A stretch of 20,093 nucleotides of DNA. Source: a virus. A model generated the notes under the pieces. It ran no database searches. It saw nothing but the letters and a program-made list of their open reading frames with translations, and was not told the origin of the DNA. The DNA is taken from positions 1 to 20,093 of IMG/VR virus record IMGVR_UViG_3300025687_000445. One strand, 5' to 3'. Both the position numbers and the translations under genes were made by a program. Below, one piece after another: positions 3,032-18,699 of the stretch (position 1 is the stretch's first letter; each line of letters opens with the position of its first letter).

Positions 3032-3706
3032 TCAGCGAATGTAACTGTCGGAAACAAGACTGATCCAATACTTGATGTTCTGTGCGGTCCCAGTGAACTC
3101 ACTGACATTCTTGCTGGAAACCTTGACATGATAGTCGTCGGGGAGAAGTTTGATGTTCTCTGTCTTGAAGATGAGGAAGAATTCCTTGCCAGTCTCGTTC
3201 GGCCCGAGAATGATGGAGTAGTCATTGCTCGAATTCGCATTGGAGGAGTCAAAGACGCGAAGAACAATGTCCTCATCCTCGGACTGAACAGAGATGTTCG
3301 GGAGTTGAAGAGTGGACGCAGCCTTCATCAGGTCGGCGAAATGATCTGCCTTGAAGTCGAACTCCACTTCGACATTTGGCATCTTCACATCCTTCTCGGC
3401 CTTCACAAGAAGAGAGGGATCGGAGTAGCGATAGGTGATCTTTGCGTTCTTCGTCTTGGAAGAGATGACCACCATCTTGTCTTGGAAATCGAAATCAGGA
3501 TCCTTGAACAGCGATACAGTCGAGAGGAACTGACTGAGATCGTAGATGCCGAACTCCACGGGGAACTTCTCGGGGACTGTCGCCTCTGCCATCACATTCA
3601 TCGTCGGGGCGAGAGAACGAATTGTGTTCCCCGGCTTGACATAGAGATTCGAGCAGATGGACGAATAGTTTTTCAGGATGTTCAAAGTTTCACTTGAGAT
3701 TTTCAT
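3032..3706 (-). CDS. 45: Sliding clamp (gp45)
   Basis: The 224-residue product aligns along its length with the T4 clamp (228 aa). It opens with MKISSETLNILKNYSSI, continues with FGIYDLSQFLSTVSLF near residues 52-67, then YSIILG and the NIKLLPDDYHVKVSS block near the C-terminus. The trimeric ring encircles DNA, tethers DNA polymerase and, in T4, also acts as coactivator of late transcription. The start at 3706 has GGAGG six bases upstream. It is the first protein gene after tRNA-Thr and the host-type promoter at 3828-3855, and leads the replication operon. Confidence 0.94.
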   Translation of the reverse strand: MKISSETLNILKNYSSICSNLYVKPGNTIRSLAPTMNVMAEATVPEKFPVEFGIYDLSQFLSTVSLFKDPDFDFQDKMVVISSKTKNAKITYRYSDPSLLVKAEKDVKMPNVEVEFDFKADHFADLMKAASTLQLPNISVQSEDEDIVLRVFDSSNANSSNDYSIILGPNETGKEFFLIFKTENIKLLPDDYHVKVSSKNVSEFTGTAQNIKYWISLVSDSYIR

Positions 3707-3728: not shown

Positions 3729-3813
3729 AGCCGGAGACAGGATTCGAACCTGCGAGTTCCATAAGGAATCTTGATTACAAATCAAGTGCTTTCGACCACT
3801 AAGCTACTCCGGC
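3729..3813 (-). tRNA. tRNA-Thr (anticodon UGU) with a long variable arm
   Basis: The acceptor stem GCCGGAG/CTCCGGC pairs perfectly. The D stem is GCTT/AAGC, the anticodon stem is CTTGA/TCAAG, and the loop TTTGTAA gives anticodon TGT (Thr). The T arm is GCAGG TTCGAAT CCTGT. The variable region is 16 bases and can form a 4-bp stem (TTCC-TTAT-GGAA), a class II feature normally limited to Ser, Leu and bacterial Tyr. The discriminator is T and CCA is not encoded. It lies between the promoter and gp45. Whether Thr or Ser is charged is open. Confidence 0.85.
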
Positions 3814-3914: not shown

Positions 3915-4373
3915 TCACTTGATTTCAATCTTTTTAGGTTTCTTACTCTCAGGAATCTCCATTCGGAGATTGATTGTAAGAATTCCATTTTCCATGACAG
4001 CACTATCCACCACGACGTGCTCTGCCAGAGTCCATGTTCGCGAGAAGGAACGCTCTGCGATTCCTCGATGAAGATACTTCACCTCATCACCTTCCTTCTT
4101 TTCCTTTTCAACACTCTGAACGATAAGGTATTGATTGTCATTCAGAATTTCAATATCCTCGCGAGAGAATCCAGCAAGGGCGATCTGAATGGAATAAGTT
4201 CCTTCGCCAGTCTCTAGAATGTTGTAGGGTGGATACTTCCCTGCGGCAGAAGTGGAGAACTCGATTGCGTCTCGCCACTTCTCAAGAATACGATCAAATC
4301 CAATCGTGGACGCCTTTGGTGGGAAATCCCAAAGAGCATTCTTGGTGTTCAAACTAAAAACTTCGTTGGTCAT
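3915..4373 (-). CDS. hsp20: Small heat-shock protein, Hsp20/IbpA family
   Basis: The 152-residue protein has an alpha-crystallin domain from about residue 48 to 145. It includes the YNILETGEGTYSIQIALAGF strand region, the FSREDIEI segment, the RGIAERSFSRTW segment and a late NGILTINL strand. It ends with an I-x-I motif (IEI), which mediates oligomer assembly in this family. Hsp20 proteins hold unfolding proteins without ATP, and homologues are common in marine T4-like phages. The start has AGGAGG six bases upstream. The leader carries a late promoter TATAAATA, a UUCG hairpin, and a fold that could cover the ribosome binding site like a ROSE thermometer. A strong terminator follows. Confidence 0.95.
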   Translation of the reverse strand: MTNEVFSLNTKNALWDFPPKASTIGFDRILEKWRDAIEFSTSAAGKYPPYNILETGEGTYSIQIALAGFSREDIEILNDNQYLIVQSVEKEKKEGDEVKYLHRGIAERSFSRTWTLAEHVVVDSAVMENGILTINLRMEIPESKKPKKIEIK

Positions 4374-4379
4374 GTTGTG

Positions 4380-4428
4380 CCTCCTTTTTAAAGCAAGACC
4401 TCGTTTTGGGATCCCCGAAGGCGATCCC
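4380..4428 (-). promoter_or_regulatory. Candidate ROSE-like RNA thermometer in the hsp20 leader
   Basis: On the minus strand CUUGCUU (4391-4397), a UAAA loop and AAGGAGG (4380-4386) can pair so that the ribosome binding site is covered. UUGCU lies opposite AGGAG with one G-G mismatch. This is the arrangement of ROSE thermometers, whose conserved anti-SD element is U(U/C)GCU. Upstream, 4408-4428 forms a stable hairpin (GGGATC, bulged G, CC, UUCG loop, GG, GATCCC). The association with a small heat-shock gene fits. The function is inferred. Confidence 0.55.
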
Positions 4429-4439
4429 GTTCATGTGCT

Positions 4440-4447
4440 ATTTATAC
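4440..4447 (-). promoter_or_regulatory. T4-type late promoter, TATAAATA, upstream of hsp20
   Basis: An exact TATAAATA on the minus strand lies 66 bases upstream of the hsp20 start. It would give a leader of roughly 60 bases, just containing the two hairpins described at 4380-4428. Confidence 0.65.
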
Positions 4448-7202: not shown

Positions 7203-7210
7203 TATTTATA
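7203..7210 (-). promoter_or_regulatory. T4-type late promoter, TATAAATA
   Basis: An exact octamer on the minus strand overlaps the last base of the small membrane protein gene region. It points at the RMF-like gene, 74 bases away. Confidence 0.55.
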
Positions 7211-7378: not shown

Positions 7379-7401
7379 ATCATTCTCCTTTAAGATGGAA
7401 A

Positions 7402-7473
7402 TGACCCTGGAGAGAATTGAACTCTCGTTACAAGAGTGAAAATCTTGTGTCCTAACCACTAGACGACAGGGCC
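7402..7473 (-). tRNA. tRNA-Glu (anticodon UUC)
   Basis: The acceptor stem is GGCCCTG/CAGGGTC with one G-T pair. The anticodon stem CAAGA/TCTTG carries loop TTTTCAC, giving anticodon TTC. The T arm is GAGAG TTCAATT CTCTC. The variable region is short, the discriminator is A, and no CCA is encoded. It is separated from tRNA-Gly by 11 bases. Confidence 0.95.
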
Positions 7474-7484
7474 ATATTTTTGAA

Positions 7485-7557
7485 AGTGCCTGATCGGACT
7501 TGAACCGACGACATATTGCTTGGAAGGCAATCACTCTACCAACTGAGTTACAGGCAC
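7485..7557 (-). tRNA. tRNA-Gly (anticodon UCC)
   Basis: A perfect acceptor stem GTGCCTG/CAGGCAC, D stem ACTC/GAGT and anticodon stem ATTGC/GCAAT. The loop CTTCCAA gives anticodon TCC. The T arm is GTCGG TTCAAGT CCGAT. The discriminator is T and no CCA is encoded. It is the first gene after the promoter at 7571-7598. Confidence 0.96.
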
Positions 7558-7917: not shown

Positions 7918-8005
7918 AGGAGGGTGTGGGATTCGAACCCACGGAAGGCGATGAACCTTCACAAGTTTTCAAGACTAGCTCCTTAAACCACTCGGACAAC
8001 CCTCC
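7918..8005 (-). tRNA. tRNA-Ser (anticodon UGA)
   Basis: Acceptor GGAGGGT/ACCCTCC and a D arm with TCC/GGA. The anticodon loop CTTGAAA gives anticodon TGA, on a stem with one T-T mismatch. There is a long variable arm (GAAGG/CCTTC) and a T arm GTGGG TTCGAAT CCCAC. The discriminator is T, not the usual G of bacterial Ser tRNAs. No CCA is encoded. It is packed between purA (5 bases) and the ParB-like start (2 bases). Confidence 0.93.
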
Positions 8006-8010
8006 AAACT

Positions 8011-9000
8011 TCAGATTCCATCCTTACTTGAAGAAAACACAATATCGGAGATTTTTGTCTTTTGAAACAAGACCTTTTGAATGTACTCCTGCATCTCTTC
8101 AAGTGAACCATATTCTATCAACTCACTTTCGTCGTACAAGCGATAGTGTCCAACTTTTTCCAACACATCACACTTGTTGATGATGACGCGATCACAACCA
8201 CAGAGATTGATTGCCTTCACCAACTTGGGGAGGGACAACCAATTGACTTTTCTTTTTCTCCCCGTTGTAGTTCCAAATTCCTCGCCTTCTTCGATGATTC
8301 TATCAAGGATTTCCTGTCCCCATAGTTCGTCTGGGAAACATGGATCCACTCCACTTTTCGTATCATATATCTTCGCCACACCAATCACTCTCCCGATGTC
8401 CTTATGGTTGAACCCAAGAGAACATGCAGAGTAGGGAAGAGTGCTACTACTTGTCACATAAGGATAATTTCCTTGGTCTATGTCCAACCACACACTCTGC
8501 GCCCCTTCACACAAAATCTTTCCCTTCAGTTCACCGTCCCAAAGGAATTCCCTTGGAAGAGCATCCTTGGCCTGAACTCCTCTTCGCATCATCTTGTCGG
8601 AGTAGCATGGAGCGATTCCGTTTCCAGTGGTGCCGAGTTTTTCCTTCAGGTAGTAGTTGTCATAGCGAATATGTGCTTCGGATATGATGTGAGCATTGGG
8701 GGACACCTTGACAAGAGAAGTGTCCAATCCTGCGGATCTCAGGTAGTGAATCTCATCGAGAAACTTGTCAACATTCACCACACAACCAGGACCAATGACA
8801 CATTTCTTCCCAGAGAAAATGCCAGAAGGAACCAAGTGAGTTTTGTGTTTCTTTCCGTCGATGTATATGGTATGACCAGCATTCGCCCCTCCGTTCCACC
8901 GGCAAACCATATCGTATTTTGGTGCGAGAGCGTGAACAATCTTTCCCTTTCCCTCGTCACCCCATGCAAGTCCCACAACAATGGTCACGAATCCAATCAT
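8011..9000 (-). CDS. purA: Adenylosuccinate synthetase, short (archaeal-size) PurA family
   Basis: PurA joins IMP and aspartate with GTP to make adenylosuccinate, the first step toward AMP. The sequence shows the P-loop GDEGKGK at residues 14-20 with catalytic Asp15, and the NAGHT motif with His43. It also has GTTGNGIAPCYSDK (123-136), YPYVTSSST (179-187), the aspartate-binding TTTGRKRKVNW (244-254), and the guanine-specificity motif NKCD (275-278). At 329 residues it is about 100 shorter than bacterial PurA and near archaeal PurA and the phage PurZ group. PurZ enzymes are reported to replace the catalytic Asp and to use ATP; here Asp and NKxD are both kept, so ordinary PurA chemistry is more likely. 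The start overlaps the GNAT stop as ATGA. Confidence 0.92.
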   Translation of the reverse strand: MIGFVTIVVGLAWGDEGKGKIVHALAPKYDMVCRWNGGANAGHTIYIDGKKHKTHLVPSGIFSGKKCVIGPGCVVNVDKFLDEIHYLRSAGLDTSLVKVSPNAHIISEAHIRYDNYYLKEKLGTTGNGIAPCYSDKMMRRGVQAKDALPREFLWDGELKGKILCEGAQSVWLDIDQGNYPYVTSSSTLPYSACSLGFNHKDIGRVIGVAKIYDTKSGVDPCFPDELWGQEILDRIIEEGEEFGTTTGRKRKVNWLSLPKLVKAINLCGCDRVIINKCDVLEKVGHYRLYDESELIEYGSLEEMQEYIQKVLFQKTKISDIVFSSSKDGI

Positions 9001-9440: not shown

Positions 9441-9463
9441 AATCACATCTCAACAAGTTATAA

Positions 9464-9549
9464 CTGAAGGGGTGGGACTCGAACCCACGACGGGAATTTA
9501 TCCTCTTGATTAACAGTCAAGCGCCTGCTACCAACTCGGCTACCCTTCA
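9464..9549 (-). tRNA. tRNA-Asn (anticodon GUU) with a long variable arm
   Basis: A perfect acceptor stem TGAAGGG/CCCTTCA and a three-pair D stem GCC/GGC. The anticodon stem CTTGA/TCAAG carries loop CTGTTAA, giving GTT. The T arm is GTGGG TTCGAGT CCCAC. U1-A72 and discriminator G fit Asn tRNAs. However, the variable region is 16 bases (GGA-TAAAT-TCC stem), and the D arm resembles class II tRNAs. No CCA is encoded. It is four bases from tRNA-Val. Confidence 0.87.
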
Positions 9550-9553
9550 AAAG

Positions 9554-9626
9554 TGCTCTCGGAGGGATTCGAACCCCCAACCTTCACCGTGTAAAGATGC
9601 TACTCTAGCCGTTGAGTTACGAGAGC
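9554..9626 (-). tRNA. tRNA-Val (anticodon UAC)
   Basis: A perfect acceptor GCTCTCG/CGAGAGC and D stem ACTC/GAGT. The anticodon loop TTTACAC gives anticodon TAC. The anticodon stem GCATC/GGTGA has one end mismatch and one T-G pair. The T arm is GGGGG TTCGAAT CCCTC. The discriminator is A and no CCA is encoded. Confidence 0.93.
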
Positions 9627-18129: not shown

Positions 18130-18699
18130 ATGAAGAGATGGATTCGAAAAAGTTTTCTGTATCGATGGATCGCGAAATTTCTCACTTGGTTCGGGGACAT
18201 TCGTGTTGACTTCGATCCACCTGCTACAAGAGCTCGTCATTTTCGAAAACTATTGAAACTAGCTGAGCCAGGAGATGTGATTTGCCGCAAATATGATTGT
18301 TATGTGGATTCGGTGTTCATCGAAGGGGAATACACACACTCAGGAATACTAACCCACAAGGATAAAGTGACACACTCCATAGCCGAAGGAGTCGTGAGTC
18401 ACGATGTATTGGACTTTGTTTTGGACACCGAAGGGTTCATTCTTCTTCGCCCAAAATACAACAGCGAGCAGAATGTCATAAATTCCACGAAGTTCGCAGA
18501 GAATCAAATAGGAAAACCATATGATTTTCTTTTTGACATGCGAGAAAAAGATTCATTCTATTGCCACGAGCTCACTGCTGGAGCGTTGGGAGCAGGAAAC
18601 CTCAAAGTGACACCAAAGAAAAGCATCATCTACGCATCCGACATCTTTCCACTGTGCAATGTGGTGTATGAATCGGATAAGGATTTTTTCGACGATTAG
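18130..18699 (+). CDS. YiiX-like permuted NlpC/P60 cysteine hydrolase
   Basis: The 189-residue protein shows the permuted NlpC/P60 order. LAEPGDVICRK comes first (44-54), then EYTHSGIL with the His at 70. Next are FILLRPKYN (103-111) and QIGKPYDFLF (126-135), and the Cys at 145 in SFYCHELTAGAL. YiiX-like enzymes are thought to cleave amide or acyl bonds in envelope or lipid-linked substrates. It is the only plus-strand gene and meets the next gene stop to stop, with overlapping stop codons (TTAG). The basic N-terminal 40 residues precede the domain. No ribosome binding site is visible, and a late-type A/T-rich stretch abuts the start. Confidence 0.85.
   Translation: MKRWIRKSFLYRWIAKFLTWFGDIRVDFDPPATRARHFRKLLKLAEPGDVICRKYDCYVDSVFIEGEYTHSGILTHKDKVTHSIAEGVVSHDVLDFVLDTEGFILLRPKYNSEQNVINSTKFAENQIGKPYDFLFDMREKDSFYCHELTAGALGAGNLKVTPKKSIIYASDIFPLCNVVYESDKDFFDD

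Follow-up and report, generated by a model that had tools for sequence, protein, structure and literature searches.

A candidate short ROSE-type RNA thermometer, conserved across phages, in the leader of a viral hsp20 gene

The leader of the hsp20 gene in the viral DNA described here (the window: 20,093 nucleotides, positions 1 to 20,093 of IMG/VR record IMGVR_UViG_3300025687_000445) is, in our view, most probably a short ROSE-type RNA thermometer, a reading to which we give a probability of about 0.8 and in which the gating by temperature is deduced from ROSE-like anatomy. The leader is made up of two hairpins, a stable 5′ hairpin (P1, 4428–4408) followed by a second (P2, 4398–4380) that covers the Shine–Dalgarno sequence. 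An earlier note, made from the letters of this one stretch, had pointed to the leader as a thermometer candidate; that observation is confirmed, and it is larger than its author could see. Judged by sequence comparison, the element appears to be of the short ROSE type already known from bacteria, and a search of the open-access literature turned up neither a ROSE element nor an hsp20 thermometer described in a phage.

The window carries T4-like replication genes identified with Pfam, namely those for the gp45 clamp and the gp44 clamp loader. The hsp20 gene occupies 3915–4373 on the minus strand and encodes a small heat-shock protein of 152 amino acids; the open reading frame matches Pfam HSP20 (E 3.5e-16). 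Its AUG start codon (4371–4373, minus strand) lies 6 nt 3′ of the Shine–Dalgarno sequence. Downstream on the same strand is the gene for the gp45 sliding clamp (3032–3706; Pfam gp45-slide_C, E 4.8e-15). Phages Mosig and Melnitz-3 have the same neighbourhood. Marine T4-like phages commonly carry hsp20, a host-like gene. The window also contains tRNA genes for Thr, Glu, Gly, Ser, Asn and Val, all six on the minus strand, at 3729–3813, 7401–7557, 7918–8005 and 9463–9626. A phage adenylosuccinate synthetase gene lies at 8011–9000 (Pfam E 4.5e-87), and 18130–18699 encodes a papain-like amidase of the C92 family (E 2.3e-10).

P1, on the minus strand, consists of arms at 4428–4420 and 4415–4408 closed by a UUCG loop (4419–4416), with a bulged G at 4422, and is the stable UUCG hairpin that the earlier note had described. 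P2, the presumed thermosensor, is formed by the minus-strand stretch UCUUGCUUUAAAAAGGAGG, the 3′ end of which is 6 nt short of the AUG. Within it UCUUGCUU (4398–4391) pairs with AAGGAGG (4386–4380). The pairing as first proposed had CUUGCUU (4397–4391) covering AAGGAGG across a UAAA loop (4390–4387) with one G opposite G. All of these parts are present, but covariation in the family favours an unpaired, bulged G at 4394 over the G-opposite-G arrangement. The minimum-energy fold of the isolated P2 hairpin is nevertheless the G-opposite-G pairing, and when the full leader is folded the program prefers a shifted register in which UGCUUU pairs with GAGGCA.

The late promoter that had been proposed for this gene is present as an exact T4-type motif, TATAAATA, at 4446–4439 on the minus strand. 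The motif occurs three times in the window, compared with 0.17 occurrences expected; the other two exact copies are at 652–659 and 7203–7210, also on the minus strand. Of 94 leaders of the family, 39 have it no more than 45 nt upstream of P1, compared with 0.45% of background windows, and in these 39 its start is mostly 12–13 nt ahead of P1. By analogy with T4 late promoters, this placement just upstream of P1 would put the start of transcription at or near the base of the hairpin; in the window it would fall near 4434–4433, about 5 nt before P1. In four loci (L002, L003, L004 and L006) hsp20 and its leader are near-identical while the DNA farther upstream differs, and several of these carry TTGACA, a sigma-70-like −35 element, 16 nt before TATAAA. 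The gene and its leader may be mobile as a cassette.

Six close relatives (85–86% protein identity) have the same leader, with different DNA upstream of the promoter, and among them the P1 stem shows a compensatory change (GGAUC/GAUCC versus GGAAC/GUUCC). A DNA similarity search with the leader region against annotated phages gave no match, and relatives were therefore sought by protein and by pattern, with DNA patterns of the conserved blocks run against 2.9 million viral contigs. The matches to these patterns were nearly all in leaders of heat-shock genes, more than chance would give. A pattern of the P1 loop and the 5′ strand of P2 returned 11 viral stretches, all directly 5′ of an hsp20 gene, including some whose Hsp20 proteins are just 34–43% identical to that of the window. 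A looser pattern returned 47 stretches, in which every carrier of GCCTTCGGGG precedes hsp20 apart from one cut off by the end of its contig (L125), the leader of which is the same as that of L101. Looser-pattern matches lacking GGGG in the P1 loop lie in unrelated open reading frames and were rejected as chance. When 80 hsp20 loci were picked by protein similarity alone, the element was present almost without exception, and a simple expression finds it in 87 of the 89 unique leaders from the protein-chosen and pattern loci together. It fails on two: L098, whose motif is a C-G variant, and L066, in which a phasin-like open reading frame and then hsp20 make up a two-gene operon with the element at its head.

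A covariance model, R1, was built on 50 leaders, that of the window among them, and, in 364 kb, retrieved 96 distinct leaders with E of 0.0012 or less, about 46 of them from outside the seed; the window leader, itself a seed member, scores E ~1e-10 in 356 kb. In the alignment of the 96 leaders 95.6% of cells are paired and 10 of 15 pairs have changed on both sides, counts that lean towards the structure because the alignment was fitted to it. The covariation score is 0.529, compared with 0.163 for shuffled alignments and no more than 0.099 when the partners are slid, and exceeds that of all 500 shuffles. P1 is paired in 97.4% of cells with both-side changes in seven of its eight pairs, and this variation is far too great to come from a structure-fitted alignment alone. 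Within this freely varying stem G4422 and C4421 are invariant in all 96 leaders, and the two bases may be needed for a protein or tertiary contact.

P2 is less variable than P1 because one of its arms is the Shine–Dalgarno sequence. The register with the bulged G pairs 93.6% of its cells, compared with 81.4% for the G-G register. The telling site is one at which U or C faces G (71 U-G and 23 C-G), and the bulged G is therefore favoured over a G-G pair. G4394, C4393 and the Shine–Dalgarno bases 4384 and 4381 are the same in 96 of 96 leaders. A YGC/GG motif is common to both hairpins, with its unpaired G and the C that follows invariant throughout (96/96). Loss of the pairing in related phages was one of the outcomes that the earlier note had named as refuting its reading, which survives this check: the U(U/C)GCU strand opposite the Shine–Dalgarno sequence and the upstream hairpin are both kept, with compensatory changes.

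The resemblance to ROSE thermometers extends to sequence, structure and position. The last hairpin places a U(U/C)GCU strand, described at the outset as the ROSE hallmark, opposite the Shine–Dalgarno sequence; it reads UUGCU in the window, is kept before almost all of the phage hsp20 genes examined and appears as T-Y-G-C-T at columns 101–105 in nearly all 96 leaders. ROSE elements have two to four hairpins, the upstream ones stable, and the phage leaders have two, with a strongly covarying P1; the motif includes the unpaired G, for which the bulged register is the better one, and the site is the leader of a small heat-shock gene. Scanned by itself with Rfam, the leader of the window gave no ROSE match even at E 10. 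In 12 of 45 phage loci a ROSE_3 or ROSE_2 model of Rfam does match (E < 1), each time at the hsp20 leader and nowhere else in the locus, and ROSE_3 hits the same leader in five whole viral records with E 5e-8 to 2e-5. The gathering score of ROSE_3 (RF02523), at least 43 bits, is reached by no phage leader, the best having 34.9 bits. That the pairing is conserved and that bacterial ROSE models match at the same spot supports the interpretation of the earlier note.

The closest known counterpart stands before Pseudomonas ibpA, a short ROSE-like thermometer established with reporter fusions, toeprinting and probing; its hairpin II melts while hairpin I stays closed (PMC3669281). Like the phage leaders it has two hairpins, a stable hairpin I and a small heat-shock gene behind it; its hairpin II, like P2, sets U(U/C)GCU against the Shine–Dalgarno sequence (PMC3669281), and in the computed fold both hairpins contain an unpaired G, as in the phages. 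ROSE_3 gives this leader, used as a control, 69.2 bits, and R1 gives it 26 bits; its source, a record under the name Pseudomonas phage Y7, has the look of host DNA and was counted as cellular. The Pseudomonas element is bacterial and transcribed by sigma-32, whereas the phage leaders are AT-rich, often lie behind a phage late promoter and fall below the Rfam cut-off, and they also precede dnaK, groES and phasin-like genes. Classical ROSE elements (rhizobia, Caulobacter, E. coli and Salmonella) likewise carry U(U/C)GCU in their 3′ hairpin and lie upstream of small heat-shock genes but have three to four hairpins, and the Synechocystis hsp17 thermometer, also before a small heat-shock gene, consists of one short hairpin (PMC3669281). 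With the phage model, the leader of E. coli ibpA gave no match.

A fourU thermometer, in which four consecutive U face the AGGA of the Shine–Dalgarno sequence, was considered for the phage leaders and rejected: the opposing strand, UCUUGCUU in the window, carries an invariant GC, and the Rfam scans gave no fourU match. To our knowledge, the thermometers of lambda cIII and SP-beta blyA are not of the ROSE type and do not stand before chaperone genes. These two, together with a fourU element before a sigma-70 gene that is likewise neither ROSE-type nor placed before a chaperone gene, are the phage thermometers named in PMC11182007; they too are phage-encoded, but they are reported as single cases, whereas the hsp20 leader element is a large conserved family. 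A paper on cyanophage small heat-shock proteins contains no discussion of their regulation or leaders (PMC3827213). On the cellular side, two marine alphaproteobacterial genomes have the same leader (L193, 54 bits; L238, 52 bits), the flanking genes being cellular by eye, and the closest cellular Hsp20 proteins are mostly alphaproteobacterial. A common origin of gene and leader in phages and bacteria is likely.

The element is closely tied to its gene. The hsp20 leader is the top R1 match in all 13 of the whole viral records searched (in that of L066 it is the operon head), and in every record the runner-up falls short of it by a factor of ten thousand or more, the strongest of these second matches, in G007, being a dnaK leader. 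Weak secondary matches of the model in whole phages (E > 0.004) lie mostly before or in unrelated genes. A matching leader is present in each of 13 phages from the annotated collection (E from 5e-14 to 2e-3), syn9, S-RIM32, Mosig, Melnitz-3 and two pelagiphages among them. A search with the DNA of P2 only, which used no protein information, gave at least 241 sites, at least 210 of them before hsp20. Among the matches listed, about eight more precede apparently truncated hsp20 starts and two are too short to tell, while nine precede dnaK, one groES followed by a groEL-like open reading frame, one AhpC, one an unknown gene and nine small open reading frames that are mostly phasin-like. Pfam supports these genes with E 3.5e-21 (Cpn10), 1.4e-29 (HSP70) and 2.3e-12 (AhpC); the phasin identity is weak (best Pfam E 0.0036).

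ROSE-like leaders before dnaK on phage contigs were seen at L020 (1897–1960) and in L353, L356, L358, L362, L363, L265, L293, L307 and L345; in L363 and L293 the gene order is a ClpX-like open reading frame, dnaK, hsp20 and a ClpS-like open reading frame, the Clp names being given by eye. The groES case (L339, 1300–1400) lies on a contig with phage-type nuclease families, and the peroxiredoxin gene preceded by the P2 motif is on viral contig L388 (1909–2540). Phasin-like small open reading frames follow the element in L066, L468, L471, L395, L442, L288 and L424 and in G006 (55274–55345).

Energy calculations speak less clearly. The median energy of the consensus P2 is −3.6, −2.3, −0.65 and +0.46 kcal/mol at 15, 25, 37 and 45 °C, respectively, crossing zero between 37 and 45 °C. 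The predicted accessibility of the Shine–Dalgarno sequence in hsp20 leaders does not differ from that in 57 ordinary leaders at any temperature (p 0.49–0.62), and its rise with temperature is slightly larger (p 0.07). Folding of the window leader at several temperatures, which the earlier note had suggested as a check, did not favour it: the predicted register, which is not the family consensus, hardly melts, and between 5 and 42 °C accessibility stays nearly flat, at 0.25 to 0.28, compared with a change from 0.01 to 0.25 for the known Pseudomonas element in the same calculation. Computed accessibility, which does not tell hsp20 from control leaders, was not used as support for a thermometer and is the chief weakness of that reading.

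This small change of accessibility would also suit a leader in which P1 is a 5′ stabilizing hairpin and P2 an ordinary weak structure setting a low, temperature-independent rate of translation, and on the late mRNA P1 would lie right at the 5′ end. Such an arrangement leaves unexplained why U(U/C)GCU with its unpaired G is kept rather than a perfect complement, and why the element is placed almost exclusively before heat-shock genes; we consider it quite improbable. That the complementarity beside the Shine–Dalgarno sequence arose by chance is hardly credible: the short motif is also found before four of 57 control leaders, but it is present in 94 of 96 hsp20 leaders, and covariation above all 500 shuffles together with the specificity of the pattern searches already refutes this explanation.

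In another conceivable reading the leader would work chiefly as a protein switch: Hsp20 bound to the P1/P2 region would hold back its own synthesis, temperature acting only indirectly as unfolded clients draw Hsp20 away. There is a precedent in E. coli IbpA, which represses its own mRNA via the 5′ leader and requires Arg93 to do so (PMC10474464); the equivalent arginine is present in 103 of 107 phage Hsp20 proteins (R108 in the window), and the invariant bulged G in P1 amid varying pairs is what a binding site might show. The arginine may, however, be conserved for other reasons, and dnaK and groES, whose products are not Hsp20, have near-identical leaders too. As the sole explanation this is unlikely. 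Autorepression is compatible with a thermometer and is thus a rival in its pure form only; feedback of Hsp20 on the leader through the conserved arginine is possible as a second layer beside the thermometer.

In the thermometer reading that we prefer, the mRNA made late in infection would begin close to the base of P1, which would fold stably, shield the 5′ end and aid the folding of P2. At low temperature P2 would keep the ribosome off the Shine–Dalgarno sequence; on warming this weak hairpin, with its unpaired G and its U-G and A-U pairs, would open and the phage chaperone would be made. The phage would thus set the timing through its own promoter and the amount through temperature.

Since the two-hairpin RNA is widely conserved and closely resembles bacterial ROSE, many phages probably carry temperature-gated chaperone genes. 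More tentatively, at somewhat under an even chance, ROSE-type leaders may form a viral heat-shock regulon run by RNA alone, gating hsp20, dnaK (within clpX-dnaK-hsp20-clpS clusters), groES-groEL, phasin-like genes and ahpC, possibly with feedback through the Hsp20 arginine. If a thermometer does precede hsp20, the gene would be meant to answer temperature during infection, which raises the question of whether warming switches on the phage chaperone and alters burst size or infection success. Virus-encoded RNA thermometers would then be common rather than isolated curiosities, among phages whose hosts belong to the most abundant bacteria of the ocean.
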